Part shown: positions 1,251 through 37,941 of the stretch, piece after piece
Position numbering within the stretch: the first letter of the stretch is position 1
How the letters are laid out: every line of letters starts with the position of its first letter
Assembly (NCBI GenBank): GCA_947627985.1
Contig: CANQYD010000016.1
Location: 1 to 41,470 of the forward strand
Origin: an uncultured Clostridia bacterium
Lineage (GTDB): Bacteria; Bacillota; Clostridia; Oscillospirales; Ruminococcaceae
DNA: 41,470 bases
Direction of reading: 5' to 3'
Program-made: the position numbers and the translations under genes
The notes under the pieces: model-generated
Database searches by the model: none
What the model saw: only the letters and a program-made list of their open reading frames with translations
What the model was told of the DNA's origin: nothing

Positions 1251-1605
1251 GTGCTGAGAGCGGGTTATGCGGCAGCGGACGGCGTTTTAAGCCGGATGAG
1301 GAAAGTCCGGGCATCGCAGAGCGGGGTAGCTGCTAACGGCAGCCGAGGGCGACCTTAGGGAAAGTGCAACAGAAAATTACCGCCCGAAAGGGTAAGGATG
1401 AAAAGGCGAGGCAAGAGCTCACCGCAGGGCGGGAGACCGCTCGGGCGTGTAAACCCTACCCGATGCAACACCGATTGGTTCATGGCGTTTTCAACATCTG
1501 CTCGGTGGACGTCATGTTAAAGGTGGCTTGAGCCTGTCGGCGACGGCAGGCGTAGATAGATTGCCGCACACGACAAAACCCGGCTTACAGACCCGGTCTC
1601 AGCGC
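1251..1605 (+). ncRNA. rnpB: RNase P RNA (bacterial class A type)
   Basis: Catalytic RNA of ribonuclease P, which removes 5' leaders from tRNA precursors. Conserved segments are recognisable in order: GAGGAAAGTCCGGGC near 1298-1312, an ACAGAAA segment near 1369-1375, GTAGATAGATTGCCGC near 1552-1567, and an ACAAAACCCGGCTTA segment near 1573-1587. The ends pair as helix P1: GTGCTGAGA at 1251-1259 with TCTCAGCGC at 1597-1605 (one G-U). The gene has its own promoter and no protein-coding reading. Its length of about 355 nt is normal for the class. Confidence 0.95.
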
Positions 1606-9493: not shown

Positions 9494-9538
9494 GGGCGAA
9501 GCCCATGCTCCGCCGCAGGCGGAGCATGGGCTTCGCCC
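9494..9538. repeat. Perfect 21-bp palindromic hairpin, one-armed member of the GGGCGAAGCCC element group
   Basis: GGGCGAAGCCC (9494-9504) and GGGCTTCGCCC (9528-9538) form an outer stem that continues into ATGCTCCGCC / GGCGGAGCAT with a GCA loop, giving 21-bp arms without mismatch. The same outer stem recurs at 30678-30755 and 30851-30927. There is no T run, so it is not an ordinary terminator. The rest of the 9326-9566 gap is G-rich on the plus strand, with no gene seen. Confidence 0.85.
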
Positions 9539-9566: not shown

Positions 9567-10403
9567 CTACCCCATCAAAGCCTCGATTTCCTCCCTGCCG
9601 AGACCCGGGTGCAGCGCCGAGTTGAGAGCCGACGCGATAAGCTCCGCCGTACAGGCTACAAGCTTATCGACAGTCCTCGGCGTGACCATCATCAGGTCGT
9701 CTCCCGAGCCGGTATCCGCAATCGTCGGCACCCCGACCGCGATGCACTTTCTCCCGACGGTCGCTATTGAGAGCTCCTTCCTCGCGTTTAAGACCCCGCT
9801 TCCGGGGGAAATGCCGGTGTCGGTGAGCTGGATCGTCCTACCGAGGTGCCTTACGTCGCAGCAGGCAAGAGCGTCCACCGCTATAAGAGCGTCGGGCTGA
9901 ATCGCCTCGCAGACCGATTTAATTAGCTCCTGAGCTTCTATCCCGGTCTGACCCATCACCCCCGGCGATATCGCGGACACTTCTCCCAAGCCCTCCGACA
10001 TCAGCTCCGGCGCGTTTTCTTTGAGATGCCTTGTCGCAAGTATTTTTGAGCAGACTTTAGGTCCCAAGCTGTCCGGGGTGACTTCCGCGTTCCCGAGCCC
10101 CACTACAAGCACCTTTTTTGACTTCTCAAGCATCGTTTTCAAGCCCTCTTTTAAGCAGTCAGCCCATTCGTCAAAGCTGCTCGGACGGTAGTCCATTCTC
10201 CCGGGGCTTTCGAGCGTAAGATACCTTCCCTTCGGCTTTCCGATCTCCCGGGCAGCTTCCGATGAAGAGACCTTCACGTCGGTGATCTTCAGCCCCATGA
10301 TGCTTTTTTCGATCATCTCGATACCCTCGGGGAGAGGTCTGTTTTTTTCGATGGTCTGGGCTTTTTCGAGCGCGAGATCGGTGCGCAGGTCATTGATATT
10401 CAA
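9567..10403 (-). CDS. gpr: Germination protease GPR
   Basis: 278 residues from the chosen start. GPR is a spore protease (family A25) that degrades small acid-soluble proteins during germination. Recognisable segments are NDLRTDLALE at the N-terminus, GRYLTLESPG, VVGLGNAEVTPDSLGPKV, ISPGVMGQTGIE, DALIAVDALACCD, GISPGSGVLNAR, and AVGVPTIAD. I chose the TTG at 10403 because GGGAG lies 8 nt upstream and zymogens of this family begin close to the RTDLA segment; a TTG at 10442 would extend it by 13 residues. It is divergent from rpsT, a common Clostridia arrangement. Its presence implies sporulation capacity. Confidence 0.95.
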   Translation of the reverse strand: MNINDLRTDLALEKAQTIEKNRPLPEGIEMIEKSIMGLKITDVKVSSSEAAREIGKPKGRYLTLESPGRMDYRPSSFDEWADCLKEGLKTMLEKSKKVLVVGLGNAEVTPDSLGPKVCSKILATRHLKENAPELMSEGLGEVSAISPGVMGQTGIEAQELIKSVCEAIQPDALIAVDALACCDVRHLGRTIQLTDTGISPGSGVLNARKELSIATVGRKCIAVGVPTIADTGSGDDLMMVTPRTVDKLVACTAELIASALNSALHPGLGREEIEALMG

Positions 10404-10449
10404 AAAATCATCTCCCGAAAAATTTTGTGAGAAAATTTTCAAAAAGGGC

Positions 10450-11499: not shown

Positions 11500-12104
11500 G
11501 GTGGAGGAGGGGAGGGGCTTTCACCCTCGCCCCCAGCCCCCTCCCCCTTTTAGGGGGAGGGGGCTACGCTTTGCTGTAAGTCTGTACAAAAGTAAGTCGG
11601 TGGAGGGGGTCTACTTAAAATAGCATATCAAATTTCCGCACCTGCGGGAATTTGATATACCTTTTGGCAAAGGGTGCGGCGGGTATTGGGCACTTGCATA
11701 TTATCAAGGCTTGCCTTATTTCCCATGCTGTGTGTAACAAAGCAGTTTTACAAAGCATAGTGCTATTTTGCCTCGCTGCGCTCGGCAAACCAGAGGGGAG
11801 AACCCTTTTGTAAAAGGGTTCTCCCCTTAAACCCCACTCCTAAAACTTTCCCCTCCCCAACCCCCTCCCCCGAGGGGAGGGGCTTCCCGCCTCGCTTCGC
11901 TCGGCTCTGTGGGGCACCCCTGCGGGGTTCCCCACACCCCTCCGGCTTCGGGCGACTTCGTCGCCCTCTTTTGAACGATAAAAGCAAAAAGGACAGCTCT
12001 CGCTGTCCTTTTTGCGGAGATTTCGCGCTCTGCGGAGCGCGACCAAGGGCTCCGCCCTTGGAACCCGCAAGCCCTTTAAAAAGGGCTTGATCCTAAACTT
12101 GACT
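11500..12104. repeat. Composite intergenic repeat field A
   Basis: No gene is supported between 11444 and 12227. The stretch is tiled by hairpins. An imperfect 15-bp pair is at 11625-11639/11644-11658. A perfect 16-bp pair with a 2-nt loop is at 11794-11809/11812-11827. A module at 11889-12043 recurs at 24156-24310 with about four differences in 155 bp. A tail at 12067-12104 (GCAAGCCC, AAAAAGGGCTTGATCC) recurs inverted at 19696-19730. Small frames across it are by-products of the palindromes. Confidence 0.85.
11617..11769. repeat. Possible MITE-like element with 9-bp inverted ends
   Basis: AAAATAGCA at 11617-11625 is matched inversely by TGCTATTTT at 11761-11769. The 153-bp interval holds a long AT-rich hairpin near its left end. 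No target duplication is visible, so mobility is only suggested. Confidence 0.35.
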
Positions 12105-12135: not shown

Positions 12136-12231
12136 CTTCTACCCTCTAACCTCTAAAGCCTAAAAGCCCTCTGACACGCAGCCGGTAAAAGTCCCGCCTC
12201 TGCCTTCTGATTTCTCACTTCTGCCCTCTAA
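12136..12231. repeat. Heptamer tandem repeats (two short arrays)
   Basis: A 7-nt period is seen at 12136-12163 (CTTCTAC, CCTCTAA, CCTCTAA, AGCCTAA) and again at 12197-12231 (CCTCTGC, CTTCTGA, TTTCTCA, CTTCTGC, CCTCTAA). On the minus strand the unit reads like TCAGAAG. The second array runs into the stop codon of the S41 gene. Related arrays lie at 19628-19670 and 38707-38745. Confidence 0.7.
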
Positions 12232-19627: not shown

Positions 19628-19670
19628 TATCAGAAGTCAGAATGTCAGATGGTCGGAGGTCAGAAATCTT
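19628..19670. repeat. Heptamer tandem repeat
   Basis: Units of the TCAGAAG / GTCAGAA / GTCGGAG type are repeated about five times with one-base drift, just upstream of rimM. The unit matches the array at 38707-38745. Confidence 0.6.
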
Positions 19671-19695
19671 TCACCCAACCTTAGTCGGGACAAGA

Positions 19696-19972
19696 CAAGT
19701 TTAGGATCAAGCCCTTTTTAAAGGGCTTGCAGGGGTCTCGGGGACAGAGTCCCCGAGTCGCGCTCCGCAGAGCGCGAAATCCCCGCAAGAGGACGGCGCA
19801 AGCCGTCGTCTTGCGGTTTTATCATTCAAAAAGCGCAGGAAGGGGAAAATGAAAACAGTCCGGTGGACTGTTTTCATCGGGGGAACCCTCGCCGGGGGTT
19901 CCCCCAACAAAAAACCGGCGACGAAGTCGCCCGGAGCCCCCTCTCCCTTGGGAGAGGGGGTTGGGGGTGAGG
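19696..19972. repeat. Composite intergenic repeat C (inverted copy of the A/D family)
   Basis: Read on the minus strand it has the same order as field A: a GGGCGACTTCGTCGCC hairpin, a TTTTGAATGATAAAA segment, a variable hairpin flanked by GCAA/TTGC, the GATTTCGCGCTCTGCGGAGC core (19781-19757), a variable hairpin (CTCGGGGAC / GTCCCCGAG), then a GCAAGCCC tail (19730-19696). Hairpin arms differ from A and D but remain paired. The 19973-20052 remainder shows no gene. Confidence 0.85.
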
Positions 19973-20052
19973 GAAAACGGGAAAGGGGTCTGGGGAAAAC
20001 CCTGCAAGGGTTGTCCCCACACTGCCTCGCGAAGCGAGGCAAAATCCCCCCC

Positions 20053-24107: not shown

Positions 24108-24360
24108 GGGGGCGTACCCTCACCCCTGACCCCTCTCCCTGAAGGAGAGGGGGGAGCCTCGCTTCGCTCGGCTCCGTGGGGCACCCCTGCGGGGTTCCCC
24201 ACACCCCTCCGGCTTCGGGCGACTTCGTCGCCCTCTTTTGAACGATAAAAGCAAAAAGAACAGCTCTCGCTGTCCTTTTTGCAGGGATTTCGCGCTCTGC
24301 GGAGCGCGACGAGGGGCTCTGCCCCTCGACCCCGCCCGCTTTTTGAGGAAAAGCGGGGCA
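24108..24360. repeat. Composite intergenic repeat D
   Basis: Positions 24156-24310 repeat 11889-12043 at about 97% identity over 155 bp. The following hairpin arms differ but stay paired (GAGGGGC / GCCCCTC here, CCAAGGGC / GCCCTTGG in A). A further hairpin (CCGCTTTT / AAAAGCGG) ends the block. No gene is supported between 24039 and 24409. Confidence 0.88.
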
Positions 24361-24409
24361 AAACCTTTTTGCCTTGTCTCATTTCGGACTAATTGTAAAA
24401 TCTAACCCC

Positions 24410-27589: not shown

Positions 27590-27815
27590 AAAAAATCCGC
27601 CGTCCCGAATTTCAAAGGACGACGGATGCCGTGTTGCCACCTTTTTTGCCGCATGATGCAGCCTCTCAGACCCCTTAACGCGGGATACGCCCATGTTTTT
27701 GACATGAGGGCTCGCGGGCGTCCTTCACCGAAACTTCCTCCGGACGCTTTCAGCAAAACGCGTCCTCTCTGTTGGATTTGGTATCGGCTACTCTTCCGTT
27801 CAAAGCCTTTTATGG
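27590..27815 (-). promoter_or_regulatory. T-box riboswitch leader of hisS-aspS, probably tRNA-Asp specific
   Basis: The minus-strand RNA has the T-box AAGGTGGCAACACGG (27643-27629). The terminator is CCGTCGTCC paired with GGGACGGCGG (27625-27617 / 27606-27597), with a U run at 27595-27590. Stem I shows AGAGTA and a GAAGGAC segment that reads as the specifier side, giving GAC (Asp) at 27722-27720. UGGC in the T-box requires a tRNA ending GCCA, which fits the G73 of tRNA-Asp but not the C73 normal for bacterial tRNA-His. No strong promoter is seen between it and mgsA. Confidence 0.9.
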
Positions 27816-28449: not shown

Positions 28450-30522
28450 TTATTTTACTATGCTCTTGTATACGCCTTTCGAGACTTCTTCCACCCCGGG
28501 CTCATAGCCGTAGTAGGCTTCGATGATCTTTCTGACGAGATATTTTGAGTATTCGCCGTTCTCAATTACTGCCGCAAAAGCTATCTCGGGGTCGTCAGCC
28601 GGGTAGAACCCGACGACGGTAGAATTCTGGGTAGCCTTATTTGAAGCCTGCGGGGTGCCGGTCTTGATGGCGGCGGGGTAGGGGAGCGCTTCGAGCGAAA
28701 ACTGCGATAAATAGGCGTTTTGCTCGTTGGTGACATAATACTGCGCCGAGGTGGTATTAGCCGCCGCGAGCTTCATTCCCTCGATGATGCTGTCATAGAC
28801 CTCGGGGGAGCAGTCGATGGTGTTGACGACTTCCGAGCCGGTCTCCGAGAGCTTTTCGGTCATGTTGTAGTCCCATGTCGAATCGACAAGATGAGGTCTT
28901 AAACGCACTCCTCTGTTGGCGATGGTTGCGGCGATAGTGCACATCTGAAGCGGGGTGACTCCTACTTCCGACTGACCTATAGCAGCTTGCAGCACCTGTC
29001 CGACGGTCCACTCAAGCCCGAGCTGAGCGAAAGTGTCGGGGCAGGCAAGATATCCCTTAGAACTTGAAATCTCAAGACCCAAGTCCTCGCCGAGACCGTA
29101 GGCGGCTTCGTAATCCATCAGCCGATCGAGACCGAGCTGCTGCACGACCTGATAGAAGAAGATGTTGCAGCTCTTCTGGATCGCCGTCACGACGTTTATG
29201 CTGCCGTGGCTGCCGGTGCAGTGGACCTCGATGTCGAGATACTGCATGTTCCGGTGGCAGGAGAGGTAGGTGTCGCGGGTGATGACCCCTTCCGCGAGAG
29301 CCGCTGTAGCCGTCACGGTCTTCATGACCGAGCCGGGTCGGTATAATCCGTCAAAAGCGCGATTATAAAGCGGCTGACCGTCAGCCTGCAAAACGGAGGA
29401 GTAGTCGTTGATGAGGTCGTTTATGTCATAATTTGGATATGTCGCCGCGCCCTTTACTGCGCCGGTCTTGACGTCCATCACGACGATCGCGCCGGAGGAG
29501 CAGTCGGTAAAATCATAATCCTGTTTGGTAAGCGTCCCGTCCGCGAGGGAGTGGATAAAATCGCCGAGGATCGTCTGCAATTTCTTCTGAAAATCGCTGT
29601 CGATGGTCAGCATGACGGTTCTTCCGGGCACCGCTTCTTTGGTGATCTCTTCGGTGATCTCGCCGTCGGAGGAGACGGTGATCCGCTTTTCCCCGCGTTT
29701 ACCTGCGAGGTAGGTCTCCATCGAGCGCTCTATTCCGCTCTTTCCGACGGTGTCGCTGATTAGGTATCCCGCTTCTTTGAGAGCCGGATATTCCTCGGCG
29801 TAGATGGGTCCGACGTAGCCGATTCCGTGTGAGAAGATGTCGCCCGATGAATATACCCTGACCGCGTCCTCAACGATCGCGGCTCCCGATAATTGGAAAT
29901 TCAGCTCACGGATTTTGGAGGCGGTCTCGATCGGGACATCTTTCACAAAGACGTAGTCGGTCGAGGAGGAGAAGTCGCCCAAGATCATCTGATATCTGAT
30001 ACCCGCGACTGTTCTTTTCTCCTCGTTTGTGTAAGTTTTGGAAATTTTATACTCTTTCACAAGCGCGTCTATGCAGTTTTCGGCTGTGGCATAGCTTGCA
30101 AGGCGGAGTTTTTCATGAATCTGCTCGACTTTGCGGTCGCTCGGGTCGAGGGTGTATTTATAAGGTCTTTCGCGGGTGATGGGAAGCTCGTCGATCCACA
30201 TGATCCCGTCAGCCTCGAGGATTTTAGAGATCCGCAAAAGGACGTCGTTCTGCTCCTCGACGCTGTCCGGGAAGAATGAGCGGTTGATTACGACGTTATA
30301 TGAGACGCGGTTTTCAACGAGGGGCTTTCCGTTGATATCGACGATTTCGCCCCTTGCCGCCGATACCGACTGCACCGCGCTTTTGGAGGATTTTGACATT
30401 TCAAGGTACATCGCGCCGTCGACGACCTGAATCTTCATGAGCGCCGAGCCGGCGAATACGACAGCCGCTATCAAAATTGCGATGACGGCGATGATGCGAA
30501 GGGTTTCAAATGCTTTTTTCAT
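28450..30522 (-). CDS. mrdA: Penicillin-binding protein 2 (class B transpeptidase)
   Basis: 690 residues from the ATG at 30522. One N-terminal transmembrane helix is followed by a PBP dimerisation domain and a transpeptidase domain with SVMK (398-401), SCN (451-453) and KTG (620-622). It crosslinks peptidoglycan during elongation with MreBCD and RodA. An upstream in-frame extension to 30705 is rejected because it runs through the palindromic array; the chosen ATG has AAGG 8 nt upstream and is followed by a proper membrane anchor. It is last in the mre cluster. No clear terminator is seen. Confidence 0.93.
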   Translation of the reverse strand: MKKAFETLRIIAVIAILIAAVVFAGSALMKIQVVDGAMYLEMSKSSKSAVQSVSAARGEIVDINGKPLVENRVSYNVVINRSFFPDSVEEQNDVLLRISKILEADGIMWIDELPITRERPYKYTLDPSDRKVEQIHEKLRLASYATAENCIDALVKEYKISKTYTNEEKRTVAGIRYQMILGDFSSSTDYVFVKDVPIETASKIRELNFQLSGAAIVEDAVRVYSSGDIFSHGIGYVGPIYAEEYPALKEAGYLISDTVGKSGIERSMETYLAGKRGEKRITVSSDGEITEEITKEAVPGRTVMLTIDSDFQKKLQTILGDFIHSLADGTLTKQDYDFTDCSSGAIVVMDVKTGAVKGAATYPNYDINDLINDYSSVLQADGQPLYNRAFDGLYRPGSVMKTVTATAALAEGVITRDTYLSCHRNMQYLDIEVHCTGSHGSINVVTAIQKSCNIFFYQVVQQLGLDRLMDYEAAYGLGEDLGLEISSSKGYLACPDTFAQLGLEWTVGQVLQAAIGQSEVGVTPLQMCTIAATIANRGVRLRPHLVDSTWDYNMTEKLSETGSEVVNTIDCSPEVYDSIIEGMKLAAANTTSAQYYVTNEQNAYLSQFSLEALPYPAAIKTGTPQASNKATQNSTVVGFYPADDPEIAFAAVIENGEYSKYLVRKIIEAYYGYEPGVEEVSKGVYKSIVK

Positions 30523-30677
30523 GTTCAGAACCTTTTCAGATGGAAGAAGTTTGGGTGGGGTTAGAGGGCGTGATTTGGGGGCGGGTGCCTCGGAATATGG
30601 CTTGCGGGGGAGGAGGGCTTTGAGGAGGAGAGTTGGGTGGGGAGAGAGAGGGGAGTGCAGGAGGGTGGGTTGGAGCA

Positions 30678-30755
30678 GGGCGAAGCCCGTGCGACGAAGT
30701 CGCACCGCCGACGCTTCGCGTCGGCGCGCTGCCTTTGGCAGCGGGGGCTTCGCCC
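30678..30755. repeat. Three-hairpin palindromic element, copy 1
   Basis: Outer stem GGGCGAAGCCC (30678-30688) / GGGCTTCGCCC (30745-30755) encloses three hairpins: GTGCGAC-gaa-GTCGCAC (30689-30705), GCCGACGC-ttc-GCGTCGGC (30707-30725) and CGCTGCC-ttt-GGCAGCG (30727-30743). Drawn as a single strand it is a four-way junction. The whole 30523-31016 gap is occupied by such repeats and contains no supported gene. Confidence 0.88.
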
Positions 30756-30850
30756 CGAGCCTTCAGCTCCTATCAAGCCCTGTAATCGGCACCCAACCCT
30801 GCCGCCGGGCTTGCATATACCGCCGTGCCTTAGATAGGAGCAGGGGGTAC

Positions 30851-30927
30851 GGGCGAAGCCCGTGCGACGAAGTCGCACCACCGACGCTTCGCGTCGGCGC
30901 GCTGCCTCCGGCAGCGGGGCTTCGCCC
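30851..30927. repeat. Three-hairpin palindromic element, copy 2
   Basis: Same outer stem and arms as copy 1 with only a few changes (one base before the second hairpin, loop TCC instead of TTT, one G fewer). The spacer between the copies (30756-30850) holds an inverted CTCCTATC / GATAGGAG pair. Confidence 0.88.
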
Positions 30928-31016
30928 CCGTCCCTCCCACCTCCCACACAAACCCCATACCCCAGAACTAAAACATCCTCCACACCCCATCCTCACACGC
31001 CCCCCAAATTTCCCCC

Positions 31017-31586
31017 CTAAACCCTCTCAATATTCTTATCCTGCTCCTCCAGCTCAAGCTTCCTCGAAGCCCCGCTGAGCCGCTCGGCAAGATACACCAA
31101 AACAAAGACCGGATTCGCCCACGCAAGCGTCTTAAGAGCAGACGGTATCATGATCTTTCTCAGCACCGTCTCATACCCCTCATACGCCCATATTTTGTAA
31201 TAAAAGTAATAATCTATCCAAAGATACACCCCGCCCACCGCAAGAAAAATCAGCAGAAAATTCACAATATTCTTCCTCAGCAGCTGCGCAAAAAGCGACG
31301 CCGCGCCGGCACAGCAAAGGCAGAGCCAGAGCGCCGTAAACCCGGGCAATTTCCCGAGCGACACGTCCAGCAAAAGCCCCGCGCAGGAGCCGAAAATCGC
31401 AGCCGGAATCTCATTTTCATATGCCGCGACCGCGACCGCCAGCGGAAAAAGAATCAACCCCGCGGGCTTGCCGCTTCCCGAGGTCGACGACGTGTACCCA
31501 AGTATCATCATAACAACAAAAAATATCCATTTAAGGATAATTTTTATATTCGGGTGGATATTTATCTGCCCCTCATTCCTCTTCAT
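31017..31586 (-). CDS. mreD: Rod shape-determining protein MreD
   Basis: 189 residues, almost entirely hydrophobic with about five to six transmembrane helices. That pattern and its place directly after mreC identify it as MreD, a membrane partner of the elongation machinery. ATG 31586 has AAGGGG 7 nt upstream and overlaps the mreC end by 14 nt. The C-terminus is charged (LELEEQDKNIERV). Sequence conservation in the family is low, so the call leans on topology and neighbours. Confidence 0.88.
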   Translation of the reverse strand: MKRNEGQINIHPNIKIILKWIFFVVMMILGYTSSTSGSGKPAGLILFPLAVAVAAYENEIPAAIFGSCAGLLLDVSLGKLPGFTALWLCLCCAGAASLFAQLLRKNIVNFLLIFLAVGGVYLWIDYYFYYKIWAYEGYETVLRKIMIPSALKTLAWANPVFVLVYLAERLSGASRKLELEEQDKNIERV

Positions 31587-32427
31587 AAGCCGACCCCTTT
31601 CCGTCAAAGTCGGTGATGACAAAGACATTTTTTAAGGTATACGGATCGACCGCGGGCTTGATATTCCCGCTTCTTGAGAGCCCGTTCGAGGCAATATAAG
31701 TGTCCTCCACGGTGCCCACGACTATTCCCTTGGGCACGGTACCGCTGTAGCCTGAGGTGATGACGATATCTCCCTCCCTGAGCTCGCACTCGAGGGGAAT
31801 ATACACCATTCTTACGAGCCCGTCTAAAGAGAGCTCATAACTTCCCTCGATGACTCCCGTCTCACCGGTCCTCACGCAGTAAACGCCGAGGGAGAGCTCG
31901 TTAGAGAGCACCGTTGTCACTTTTGAATATGTGTACTGCACCTCGGTGACGTACCCCACCAGTCCCGACGAGGTGACGACGGGATCATAGAACTCTATCC
32001 CGTCCTTCTCGCCCTTGTCGATGAAGAAGGACCCGTAGGCGTCGTTTGCGGTTCGACCGATGACGTTGCAGGGCTCGGACAGCTCGATCCCGTTGCTCGA
32101 GGGCGCAAGATCGATCATCTCCCGAAGGCGCTCGTTTTCCTGCCTGATCTGCGTATAGTCGGAAATCTGAGCATACAGCCCCGAAAGCTCTTCTTTCAGG
32201 GCGATGTTTTCGTTATAGTAGTCCTTGGCGTTGATGAGCATGTCGATGGTCTCGGTGACTTTGTCCGAGATGTTGTTTGAAAACCTCTGAACTGGCGCAA
32301 AAGCTCTGCCGATGGCTGACGATATCGCATTTGACGAGCTCACGGCGGCATAGATCATCACGCCGATCAGAAACGCGGCGATGCATGCTATGACTATGAA
32401 TTTTTTAGAGGAAAAGAATTCCTTCAA
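31573..32427 (-). CDS. mreC: Rod shape-determining protein MreC
   Basis: 284 residues: an N-terminal membrane anchor (about 10-30), a coiled coil (about 70-110) and a double beta-barrel domain with NVIGRTANDAYGSFFIDKGEKDG (spread over about 122-145), GLVGYVTEV and DIVITSGYSGTVPKGIVVGTV, typical of MreC. It links the cytoplasmic MreB filament with extracellular PBPs. It is separated from mreB by the two-gene cassette, with 24 nt to the nearest cassette gene. Confidence 0.94.
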   Translation of the reverse strand: MKEFFSSKKFIVIACIAAFLIGVMIYAAVSSSNAISSAIGRAFAPVQRFSNNISDKVTETIDMLINAKDYYNENIALKEELSGLYAQISDYTQIRQENERLREMIDLAPSSNGIELSEPCNVIGRTANDAYGSFFIDKGEKDGIEFYDPVVTSSGLVGYVTEVQYTYSKVTTVLSNELSLGVYCVRTGETGVIEGSYELSLDGLVRMVYIPLECELREGDIVITSGYSGTVPKGIVVGTVEDTYIASNGLSRSGNIKPAVDPYTLKNVFVITDFDGKGSAYEEE

Positions 32428-35722: not shown

Positions 35723-36841
35723 TTATTCATTTTTAAGCATAACTGCGCTCTGCTTAAACTCCGATATCCCCCTTGCGGATTTTGTACCCATCGTGCGCAA
35801 AACCGAGGCGGTTTCGATGAGTTCGGCTTGGCGTTCGGCTTCGGGGGATATCTTTGACAGCTCCTTCAGCGACCCTCCGATCGCTATTTTTGAGGCTGAT
35901 TTTATCTCCTTAAGTATCTCTGCCCCTCGCTTGTTCATGGCTAAGACCCTTGCGAATTCCTGGGGCTTAAGATCGTCTTCGGTCAATCCTATCGCGGCGG
36001 AAAATACCGCTCGGCGTACCCTTGAAAGCGTGAAATTTCGGGACTTTGCGCTGTCATAAATCTCAAAAAGCGAAGAGGCTCGCCTCGAAGCCCGATACAG
36101 CCTCGGCGCGAGTTCAAAGCAGTAGGGGAGGCGGCGGAAATCATCTTCCGACATTGTCGAAAGGCGGTACAAAATCGCGCGCTCGGCATTCTCCCAAAGC
36201 GCCGGCTCCTCGGAAATTTCTCCGCACAAAAGCCCGCCGGGATCACGGTTTTCCCGGATTTCCGACCTTATAAACGACGCCGATGCAAAGCCGTCGTGCC
36301 GGTTGTTTCGCTCGACAGCGACGGGGGATATGGGTGCTCCGCGGTCTTTAAGCGCCCGAAGATACTCAAGGGCGAGGGTGTTGTTCGGGGTCAGAAGATC
36401 GGCAAAACCGCTGCCGATCAGCTCCGCCGCAGCTTGGGGATATGTCCTTCCCTTCGAGACGAGCGACTTGATTTTCAGCTCATTTTCGGCGATTTTATCA
36501 CTCAGATCGGAAAGCTTCTCGGCGCATGCTGTCTCGGCTCCGAATGAGAGCATTTCGACTGCTCCGAGGCGGGCGATGACGTCCACACAGCCCTTTGCGA
36601 AGTCCCTTGCGGGCGCCAGAGAAATCTGCGGCTGCATCTCCAAAACAAGATCGGCGCCGTTTTTTACCGCCTCTTTTGCACGGCTTTGGGCTGCGTAGAT
36701 CGCGATATCACCGCGCTGGACGACGCTTCCGCTCATCAGGCAGACGATATGGCTTGCCCCGGCTTCACGTGTGAGCGCAAGGTGGCGGCGGTGTCCCCTG
36801 TGAAAGGGATTGTACTCGCAGATGACGGCTGCAAGCTTCAT
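35723..36841 (-). CDS. tmcAL: tRNA(Met) cytidine acetate ligase TmcAL
   Basis: 372 residues. The nucleotidyltransferase motif is CEYNPFHRGHRRHL (near 9-22), followed by MSGSVVQRGDIAIY, which is highly specific for the YlbM/TmcAL family. The C-terminal half is the family's helical tRNA-binding part (SRVRRAVFSAAIGL). It uses acetate and ATP to acetylate C34 of elongator tRNA-Met. ATG 36841 has AGGTG 6 nt upstream; the GTG at 36850 is an alternative. Confidence 0.95.
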   Translation of the reverse strand: MKLAAVICEYNPFHRGHRRHLALTREAGASHIVCLMSGSVVQRGDIAIYAAQSRAKEAVKNGADLVLEMQPQISLAPARDFAKGCVDVIARLGAVEMLSFGAETACAEKLSDLSDKIAENELKIKSLVSKGRTYPQAAAELIGSGFADLLTPNNTLALEYLRALKDRGAPISPVAVERNNRHDGFASASFIRSEIRENRDPGGLLCGEISEEPALWENAERAILYRLSTMSEDDFRRLPYCFELAPRLYRASRRASSLFEIYDSAKSRNFTLSRVRRAVFSAAIGLTEDDLKPQEFARVLAMNKRGAEILKEIKSASKIAIGGSLKELSKISPEAERQAELIETASVLRTMGTKSARGISEFKQSAVMLKNE

Positions 36842-36974
36842 AAATTTCACCTACTTACTGAATACCGGGTTTTTAAGTGCCGGCGATGGGTTTGGCGGGC
36901 TGTTTTAAGTCTCTGCTGAAACAGGGGAGGGACAATCTGCTGTCTTACCGACTGGCTGCTGACTTGTACCTTAC

Positions 36975-37069
36975 GGGCGCAGCCAACCCGTCGGCGAAGC
37001 CGACGGGTCCCGACTGAGCTTCGCTCAGTCGGGAGCGTCCTCGGCTCCGCCGAGGACGGGGCTGCGCCC
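36975..37069. repeat. Three-hairpin palindromic element, variant sequence
   Basis: Outer stem GGGCGCAGCC (36975-36984) / GGCTGCGCCC (37060-37069) encloses CCCGTCGGC-gaa-GCCGACGGG (36987-37007), TCCCGACTGAGC-ttc-GCTCAGTCGGGA (37008-37034) and CGTCCTCGGC-tcc-GCCGAGGACG (37036-37058). The layout is that of 30678-30755 with different arm sequences. The rest of 36842-37137 shows no gene. A degenerate 7-nt periodicity is visible near 37085-37130. Confidence 0.9.
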
Positions 37070-37137: not shown

Positions 37138-37941
37138 CTATTCTCCCTTCCCCTTTTTTCTGATATAATTGAAAAGATACAGCTGCGCTATGCCCCGCGT
37201 CCCGTAGAAAGCCTCCGGGAACCCGTCGGGGTAATAGGTCTCAAGGACCCTTTTCATCCACACATCGACGGGGAAAGCCTCGGTCTTCCCAAAACCCGAC
37301 AGAAGCACGCAGTCGGCGACTTTCGGTCCGACCCCCTTGATGCGCATAAGCTCTTTTTTAGCGGCTTCGTAATCCGTCTTCCGGACATTTTCAAGATCGA
37401 CTTCCCCCGAAGCGACCTTCCCGGCGGCGTCAAGGATATACCCCGCCCGAAATCCCGATCTTAAGTACCCGAGGCTCTCGGGGGACTCGACCGCAATCTC
37501 CTTTGGAGTGGGAAAATGCCCGTAGTGCTCGCTCAGGCGGGAGATAATTCCCTTTATCCTCGTGATATTGTTGTTTGAGGAGAAGATGAAGCTGACGAGC
37601 GCCTCCCAGCTGTCCTGCCGAAGAAGCCTTATCCCTCCGGAAAACTCGCAAGCCGACCTAAGCGTCGGGTCCTTTGAATATTCATTTCTCAGCTCGGAAT
37701 AGTCGGTCCCAAGGTCAAAGTACCCCGCCCATACCTTTAAAAAAGTCTCCTCGTCGGTGTTTTTTAAGATAAATTCTCCGCCCGTACCCATGATCTCAAG
37801 CGGGGTGTCAAGGCTCGCCCCGACGTAGTGATTATCGCCTATTTTATTCCATCTGAACGCCTGACCGGTATCTAAAACATCATCGAGCTCAAGATCATTT
37901 TCATACAGGATAATATCTCCGCTGCTTACTTTATATTCCAT
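37138..37941 (-). CDS. ogg: 8-oxoguanine DNA glycosylase (OGG1 type)
   Basis: 267 residues. It excises 8-oxoguanine from DNA. The N-terminal OGG domain has TGQAFRW and SFIFSSNNNITRIKG. The helix-hairpin-helix is MRIKGVGPKVADCVLL, with the Schiff-base Lys in GPKVADC, and the catalytic Asp in FPVDVWMKRV. It is one of the larger, eukaryote-like bacterial OGGs found in Clostridia rather than MutM. It follows the DUF6062 gene by 4 nt. Confidence 0.94.
   Translation of the reverse strand: MEYKVSSGDIILYENDLELDDVLDTGQAFRWNKIGDNHYVGASLDTPLEIMGTGGEFILKNTDEETFLKVWAGYFDLGTDYSELRNEYSKDPTLRSACEFSGGIRLLRQDSWEALVSFIFSSNNNITRIKGIISRLSEHYGHFPTPKEIAVESPESLGYLRSGFRAGYILDAAGKVASGEVDLENVRKTDYEAAKKELMRIKGVGPKVADCVLLSGFGKTEAFPVDVWMKRVLETYYPDGFPEAFYGTRGIAQLYLFNYIRKKGKGE

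Follow-up and report, generated by a model that had tools for sequence, protein, structure and literature searches.

Closed three-hairpin repeats that hold their shape while their arms vary in a clostridial genome

The closest described relatives of the elements reported here are the small palindromic repeats of bacteria. REPs are palindromes of 20-40 bp in which GT pairing is often observed; their subfamilies host alternative, complementary residues in the stem, and CGTC REPs are described, in the passages cited, as having no known dedicated transposase (PMC3733652). The words Clostridi and Firmicutes are absent from the main text of that paper. In REPINs the ends are conserved and the inside is a less conserved, variable hairpin, of which length and the capacity to form a hairpin matter, and compensatory changes are common, according to the part of the work drawn upon (PMC3116915). 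The original prediction for the locus described below mentioned REP and BIME elements but knew of none with this layout, and the comparison is in fact closer than it supposed. For bacterial inverted repeats in general, the portion of a recent census used here gives 4 bp as the commonest spacer (PMC13155455).

We analysed a stretch of 41,470 nucleotides from an uncultured Clostridia bacterium, called the window throughout; named relatives suggest a gut bacterium of Oscillospiraceae type. It hosts three elements with a closed, three-hairpin core, which we call trefoil repeats, and a one-hairpin relative. These elements, to which no strand is assigned, and their neighbours are as follows.

9494..9538, no strand: one-hairpin relative, a 21-bp perfect palindrome with loop GCA that begins with the same outer stem sequence
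9567..10442, minus strand: germination protease gene (TIGR01441), adjoining the 9494 hairpin
28450..30522, minus strand: penicillin-binding protein 2 type gene (pbp2; PF00905, PF03717), downstream of the double element and on the same strand as the mreD-like gene
30678..30755, no strand: trefoil copy 1, type A (fold and own-genome matches); outer stem 30678-30688 with 30745-30755; hairpins 30689-30705 (loop GAA), 30706-30726 (TTC) and 30727-30743 (TTT)
30756..30850, no strand: the 95-nt spacer separating copies 1 and 2, the start of which resembles repeat module M1 (CGAGCCTTCAGCTCCTATCAAG...)
30851..30927, no strand: trefoil copy 2, type A; hairpins 30862-30878 (GAA), 30881-30897 (TTC) and 30900-30916 (TCC)
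31017..31628, minus strand: mreD-like gene, lying upstream of the two type A copies and so called from its place after mreC; family searches of the protein gave no match
31573-32427: MreC gene (family match), neighbour of the mreD-like gene
35723..36850, minus strand: HIGH nucleotidyltransferase gene (PF05636), presumably TmcAL, on the opposite side of element 36975 from ogg
36975..37069, no strand: trefoil with other arms; hairpins 36986-37008 (GAA), 37009-37033 (TTC) and 37036-37058 (TCC)
37138..37941, minus strand: 8-oxoguanine DNA glycosylase type gene (ogg; PF07934), adjoining element 36975

The two near-identical copies between mreD and pbp2 fold as had been claimed, with an 11-bp outer stem (GGGCGAAGCCC/GGGCTTCGCCC) closing three triloop hairpins. 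The minimum free energies as DNA are -42.9 kcal/mol (z -8.1) for 30678-30755 and -38.3 kcal/mol (z -7.8) for 30851-30927, which has a single mismatch in its middle arm. The element at 36975-37069 (-52.3 kcal/mol, z -10.6) does have the predicted layout and loops with different arms; its outer stem needs correcting to a 10-bp variant, GGGCGCAGCC. The fourth element, at 9494-9538, was picked up through the outer-stem pattern. It shares the outer stem sequence, as predicted, but forms one uninterrupted hairpin (-30.7 kcal/mol, z -10.2) and has no junction. None of 200 shuffles folded equally well for any of the four elements. Across the window the closed three-hairpin chains are exactly the elements at 30678, 30851 and 36975, and 20 dinucleotide shuffles of the window contained none.

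Such layouts are abundant in the rest of the genome and in its relatives. The strict stem, GGGCGAAGCCC...GGGCTTCGCCC, occurs 191 times in the own genome (G000; other G-numbers denote relatives' genomes) and its control does not occur. A looser pattern that leaves the inside unconstrained, GGCGNAGCC N50-80 GGCTNCGCC, has 219 matches there, compared with 1 for the reversed pattern that served as its control. Four additional own-genome places chosen by this pattern alone were all three-hairpin elements. When 30678-30755 was used as a query against the own genome, there were at least 49 matches at at least 41 places, with 92-100% identity over 67-78 nt (40 of 215 candidates scored). Within the genus the looser pattern matches 18 of 31 genomes, e.g. 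158 times in G021, 78 in G028, 54 in G022 and 33 in G019, with controls of 0-2. Three of these (G001, G006 and G016) have 1-2 matches each, which is at control level, leaving the 15 genomes with at least four copies. A covariance-model search, built from type A copies, also matched 15 of the 31 (up to 150 candidates scored per genome, E-values rough); its list gains G015, at a place that does not have this stem, and loses G024.

Across the family, the looser pattern matches 36 of 297 genomes (controls 0-4), 33 of them outside the genus, where most of the printed matches resemble coding sequence by eye. Five of the 33 were inspected: three-hairpin elements, each with arms of its own, were found in G045 (three places), G232 (four), G031 (one) and G184 (one), and the match in G059 is not such an element. 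Three genera of the family besides the own one are thereby confirmed to have three-hairpin elements, although at two of these nine places the outer stem requires a mismatch or a longer partner. Genus g16 has some AT-rich arms, therefore the structure is not made by GC content alone. The strict stem was absent from all 146 other genomes drawn from the order (138 from other families, eight from the same family, with the own genus absent from the draw); G045, G184 and G232 are among those eight and host looser-stem elements that the strict pattern misses. Searches of phage and plasmid databases gave no trefoil match. Three viral contigs match the outer pattern, and the three-hairpin core was seen by eye in none of the three printed sequences.

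A side observation concerns the assembly. The contigs C57, C61, C69, C52 and C64 of G000 end inside or at trefoil elements, hence these repeats seem to break assembly and bear on the quality of metagenome assemblies.

The core spans about 75-100 bp, with a conserved stem of roughly 11 bp at its bounds and three almost perfectly paired hairpins inside. Of 138 distinct pattern matches, 124 fold into exactly three hairpins closed by the outer stem, which is not a genome-wide rate as many of the loci were fetched for an element match. If the length is left free to about 260 nt, 103 of the 106 closed cases have three hairpins. The loop and pair statistics come from this fetched subset, which is weighted to G000, G017, G018, G019 and G005. 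Of the 372 loops, 295 are triloops, 257 of them with the sequence GNA or TNC. The closing pair is C-G in 340 loops, thus the tips are mostly C(GNA)G or C(TNC)G. Loops also show a polarity, read alike on both strands, with the 5′ hairpin tending to GNA and the 3′ hairpin to TNC: 35 of the 124 elements have this order (19 of them from G000, many being close kin) and one has the reverse. The same loop type is found at both ends in 30 elements, and another loop at one or both ends in 58. A loop type common to the hairpins of one element was no more frequent than expected in G000, G017, G018, G019 or the remaining genomes; in G005 the sharing is marginal (7 of 7 pairs, equalled in 39 of 1,000 permutations). 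The stem stops abruptly, extending only 0 or 1 bp past the 9-bp pattern at 124 of 151 places. Complementarity between the flanks is -7.90 kcal/mol, compared with -7.46 for exchanged flanks, so any extra pairing there is weak at best.

The arms are where the elements differ. Among the 372 arms there are 228 distinct sequences, yet 3,074 (98.5%) of 3,122 arm pairs are Watson-Crick, with 16 GT, 7 AC and 25 others; these counts come from minimum-energy stems in which 1x1 and 2x2 mismatches were admitted and bulges and unpaired stretches left uncounted. In an alignment of 101 distinct rows, fitted by the model to the structure from the best 150 of 192 matches and including both strands of the same elements, 99.4% of 3,349 cells pair, and for 29 of the 34 pairs there are rows in which both sides have changed. 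Both sides differ in 623 cells, and none of 500 shuffles reaches the observed values; structures slid along the same alignment pair in 34-46% of cells. RNAalifold, applied to 46 elements, misses the third hairpin and agrees where the elements are alignable, with 13 of 23 pairs changed on both sides. Copy counts, three-hairpin folds, arm pairing, covariation and the elements of other genera together give strong support to the claim that architecture is kept over sequence. Neither of the two outcomes that would have spoken against it appeared: similar layouts are plentiful, and paired arms change in concert.

Whether this structure is read as RNA or as DNA had been left as an alternative. Two structured RNAs in the window were used as controls for G-U pairing.

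1257-1603, plus strand: RNase P RNA, class A (Rfam)
27612-27812, minus strand: T-box leader (Rfam)

Their minimum-energy folds contain 18 of 108 and 8 of 62 G-U pairs respectively (13-17%). When the 124 elements are folded as RNA on both strands, 60 of 8,842 pairs (0.7%) are G-U. Wobble pairs are almost missing, hence the choice leans to DNA, and the arms probably differ with their pairing preserved at the DNA level. The elements could still be cis-acting RNA structures selected in transcripts, such as mRNA stabilisers, processing sites or attenuators. Their folds are very stable, and some lie between genes of the same strand (mreD-pbp2, ogg-nucleotidyltransferase), where they may be transcribed. 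We nonetheless consider this quite unlikely, given the scarcity of G-U pairs, a layout that is identical on both strands, neighbouring genes in every relative orientation, including divergent, and no Rfam match at the elements.

The orientations come from a crude gene call around 71 elements: the neighbouring genes are co-directional for 26, convergent for 16 and divergent for nine; a further 12 overlap long ORF calls (that at 30678 being an over-extended ORF) and eight lie at the ends of stretches. GC-rich hairpins between genes, with convergent neighbours in 16 of these 71 crudely called cases, might also suggest intrinsic terminators that act in both directions. This is highly improbable as a T-tract follows one of 142 own-genome element ends, 30500-31100 has no terminator-like site, and the co-directional and divergent placements do not fit. 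Two further candidates were rejected. Structured RNA of a known family was searched for with Rfam at gathering thresholds, which found only RNase P and the T-box in the window and nothing at the elements; a lax search of 30500-31100 gave four matches, all far under their gathering scores. An origin from tRNA was discarded since the window has no tRNA.

Comparing copies shows how they relate. Across the 40 type A copies that are 77 nt long (other lengths being excluded), 1,352 of 1,360 stem cells are unchanged, seven are changed on one side and one on both. The one-sided mismatches persist, therefore any correction of one arm from the other is not instant. The same 40 copies have 13 loop combinations, including flips of the middle loop between TTC and GAA. 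Where copies have a flanking module in common (sets of 11 and 13), their stems are 99% identical, their loops 74-79% and the modules themselves 77-85%. Type A stems are thus nearly identical within diverged flanks, which calls for selection or for conversion between copies; self-templated correction alone is insufficient.

These patterns have to be weighed against an account with no mobile unit, in which template switching during replication builds and keeps the palindromes, and local duplication and gene conversion spread the copies. In E. coli, template switching completes imperfect palindromes or brings them closer to perfection, as the cited portion of PMC7202029 reports, and it would fit the dominance of two-sided changes across subfamilies and the GAA/TTC loop flips within identical arms, which amount to an inversion of the hairpin tip. 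It leaves unexplained the fixed outer stem sequence across species, the number of exactly three hairpins and the sharp end of the stem. Nor do differences show a clear, consistent concentration at the hairpin tips, in a set of 98 arm pairs in which a single arm family prevails. We regard this account as rather unlikely.

Some copies suggest that the core behaves as a unit. An identical mutant core is found in two different flanks (own-genome C11:21414 and C35:16956), and the element at G000:C3:75462 seems to be a hybrid, with arms of type A and one of type B. Module M2 (GTTGGTCGCACAGAGGACAGA) adjoins the stem end in 17 of 17 copies irrespective of their arms, a result favoured by the selection for elements of the own-genome stretches fetched and scanned. 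Together with the identities of copies that share a module, these cases suggest copying or conversion of the whole core at once. That M2 abuts cores with different arms in all of these selected copies, and that conserved ends enclose a variable palindromic inside, would also suit a recombination site recognised by its structure, like the attC of integrons, with cores exchanged as cassettes. The core sites of attC are of the type RYYYAAC/GTTRRRY and work with a cognate IntI; the trefoil ends read GGGCGNAGCC, which is unlike these, and such a site is very unlikely.

Several other repeats were observed beside the trefoils. At about 11477 in L043, on the reverse strand (G000:C3), one of the 17 M2 copies is left with the right half of the outer stem, the hairpins and the left half being lost. 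Degenerate intergenic repeats of type AGAGGTCAGAAGTCAGA and its complement often lie directly beside trefoils (own loci e.g. L043, L044 and L048) and are found in the window at 12205-12230 and 19630-19665. A second, longer family is a row of hairpins at 11889-12089 and 24156-24373 of the window, and inverted at 19672-20040. One of its hairpin positions has swapped, self-consistent arms (ccaagggc, ctcggggac, cgaggggc; caaggggc elsewhere in the genome), and similar rows are found in relatives at L076, L081 and L082.

Gene pairs shared with relatives illustrate presence and absence, with one genome taken per species. The ogg and nucleotidyltransferase genes are neighbours on one strand in all 30 genomes with an ogg match (G028 has none), with a gap of at most 53 nt in 24 of the 30. 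A trefoil lies between them in only two, G000 and G019, and, at this orthologous locus, the comparison of which had been proposed beforehand, the two elements carry different arms. The gaps are longer (130-628 nt) in G002, G005, G017 and G018, which have no closed element there. The core thus occupies a gene pair that is free of it in most relatives. The gap between mreD and pbp2 is 494 nt in the own genome, compared with 14-183 nt in six relatives (five 'Lapin' MAGs, presumably from rabbit, and one roe deer MAG) that have no element of this stem. The largest of these relative gaps hosts, at about 5850-5940 of L079, a different three-hairpin element with closing stem GCAGCCCGC, which is nested in another pair of flanks that are apparently complementary by eye, i.e. 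nested palindromes.

A Y1 transposase was considered as the mover and rejected, as its presence does not track the elements. The domain (PF01797) occurs in eight of the 31 genus genomes and is missing from G019, G023, G025, G026 and G027, each of which is at least 97% complete and matches the pattern 12-33 times. No trefoil was found beside the Y1 genes at any of seven loci inspected (two of them own), with flanks to about 2 kb. Target-site duplications were sought as direct repeats between flanks: the mean is 2.01 nt, compared with 1.83 (sd 0.12) for exchanged flanks, at 78 own-genome places, and 1.92 compared with 1.79 (sd 0.10) at 90 places in other genomes, giving no sign of duplication. 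The flank profiles contain neither a GTAG nor a CGTC tag. They do show a GC skew within 50 nt in G000, the 5′ flank being G-rich (+0.31) and the 3′ flank C-rich (-0.29) on each strand; the left skew exceeds the right at 97% of 68 places in G000, 100% of 17 in G017 and 62-88% in other groups. A G3 quadruplex motif is found in 21% of 5′ flanks and 0-3% of 3′ flanks in G000, with G017 alike, and in no 5′ flank of G018, G019 or the others. An exploratory scan of all 3- and 4-mers found TGCG/GTGC over-represented in the 15 nt next to the stem, on the 5′ side of either strand, in G019, G005 and g16.

The explanation that we favour, with confidence somewhat above even, is that trefoil repeats are a family of very small DNA repeats, REPIN-like and non-autonomous, with a core that is copied or converted whole. 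The core would move or convert in one piece and be active as single-stranded or extruded DNA, on the lagging strand or as a cruciform, where GNA triloop mini-hairpins would fold readily. A recombinase, a transposase or a conversion process may recognise the conserved stem, in which case the inner arms would need only to pair. Arms could stay paired because misfolded cores fail to propagate and because one arm is rewritten on the template of the other by hairpin-templated (quasipalindrome) correction, which would give changes on both sides with no wobble intermediates. That said, many copies in G005 and G019 have arms of their own, so plain copying from a master is insufficient. Another DNA-level system would account for these copies: recombination or repair machinery that recognises the closing stem and swaps the three inner hairpins for fresh, self-complementary ones, seeded at GNA tips, thereby writing new palindromes into a fixed frame. 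We hold this to be unlikely. A copying mechanism that builds palindromes was an alternative within the original prediction and, taken as dedicated machinery, it was not borne out.

If the favoured explanation of a REPIN-like family is true, these repeats keep their shape more faithfully than the sequence of their arms, at the DNA level and across several genera. With about 200 copies in one genome and 228 arms in 124 elements, they are a natural data set on how perfect bacterial palindromes are made and kept. Among the open-access literature matches listed we found no description of a three-hairpin core, which does not imply absence from print, and the literal 11-mer occurs in seven papers, of which, as judged by title, none concerns bacterial repeats.

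Compared with known systems, trefoils share with MITEs and bacterial stem-loop sequence families a short, repeated unit with an inverted terminal sequence, here the outer stem (PMC2267715, in the sections cited); they differ in having no target-site duplication, and a parent insertion sequence was not found. The tips, C(GNA)G or its complement, resemble the extraordinarily stable mini-hairpin d(GCGAAGC), which is, as presented in the cited part of PMC10527192, a physical motif studied in vitro and not a genomic element. Like GTAG- and CGTC-tagged REPs and BIMEs, trefoils form mosaic arrays of small palindromes with recurring spacer sizes; unlike REPs, they are multi-branched and almost free of GT pairs. 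REPINs are the closest match, being likewise intergenic and of high copy number, with conserved ends around a variable, self-complementary inside. A REPIN is one long hairpin, whereas a trefoil is a closed three-hairpin core with no GTAG tag and no link to Y1 transposase (RAYT) genes. Given the branched core, the missing tag and Y1 link, and the near-absence of GT, we describe trefoils as REPIN-like in their working and do not file them as members; if this is correct, they add a multi-branched core, from Oscillospiraceae-type Clostridia, to the REPIN-like elements.
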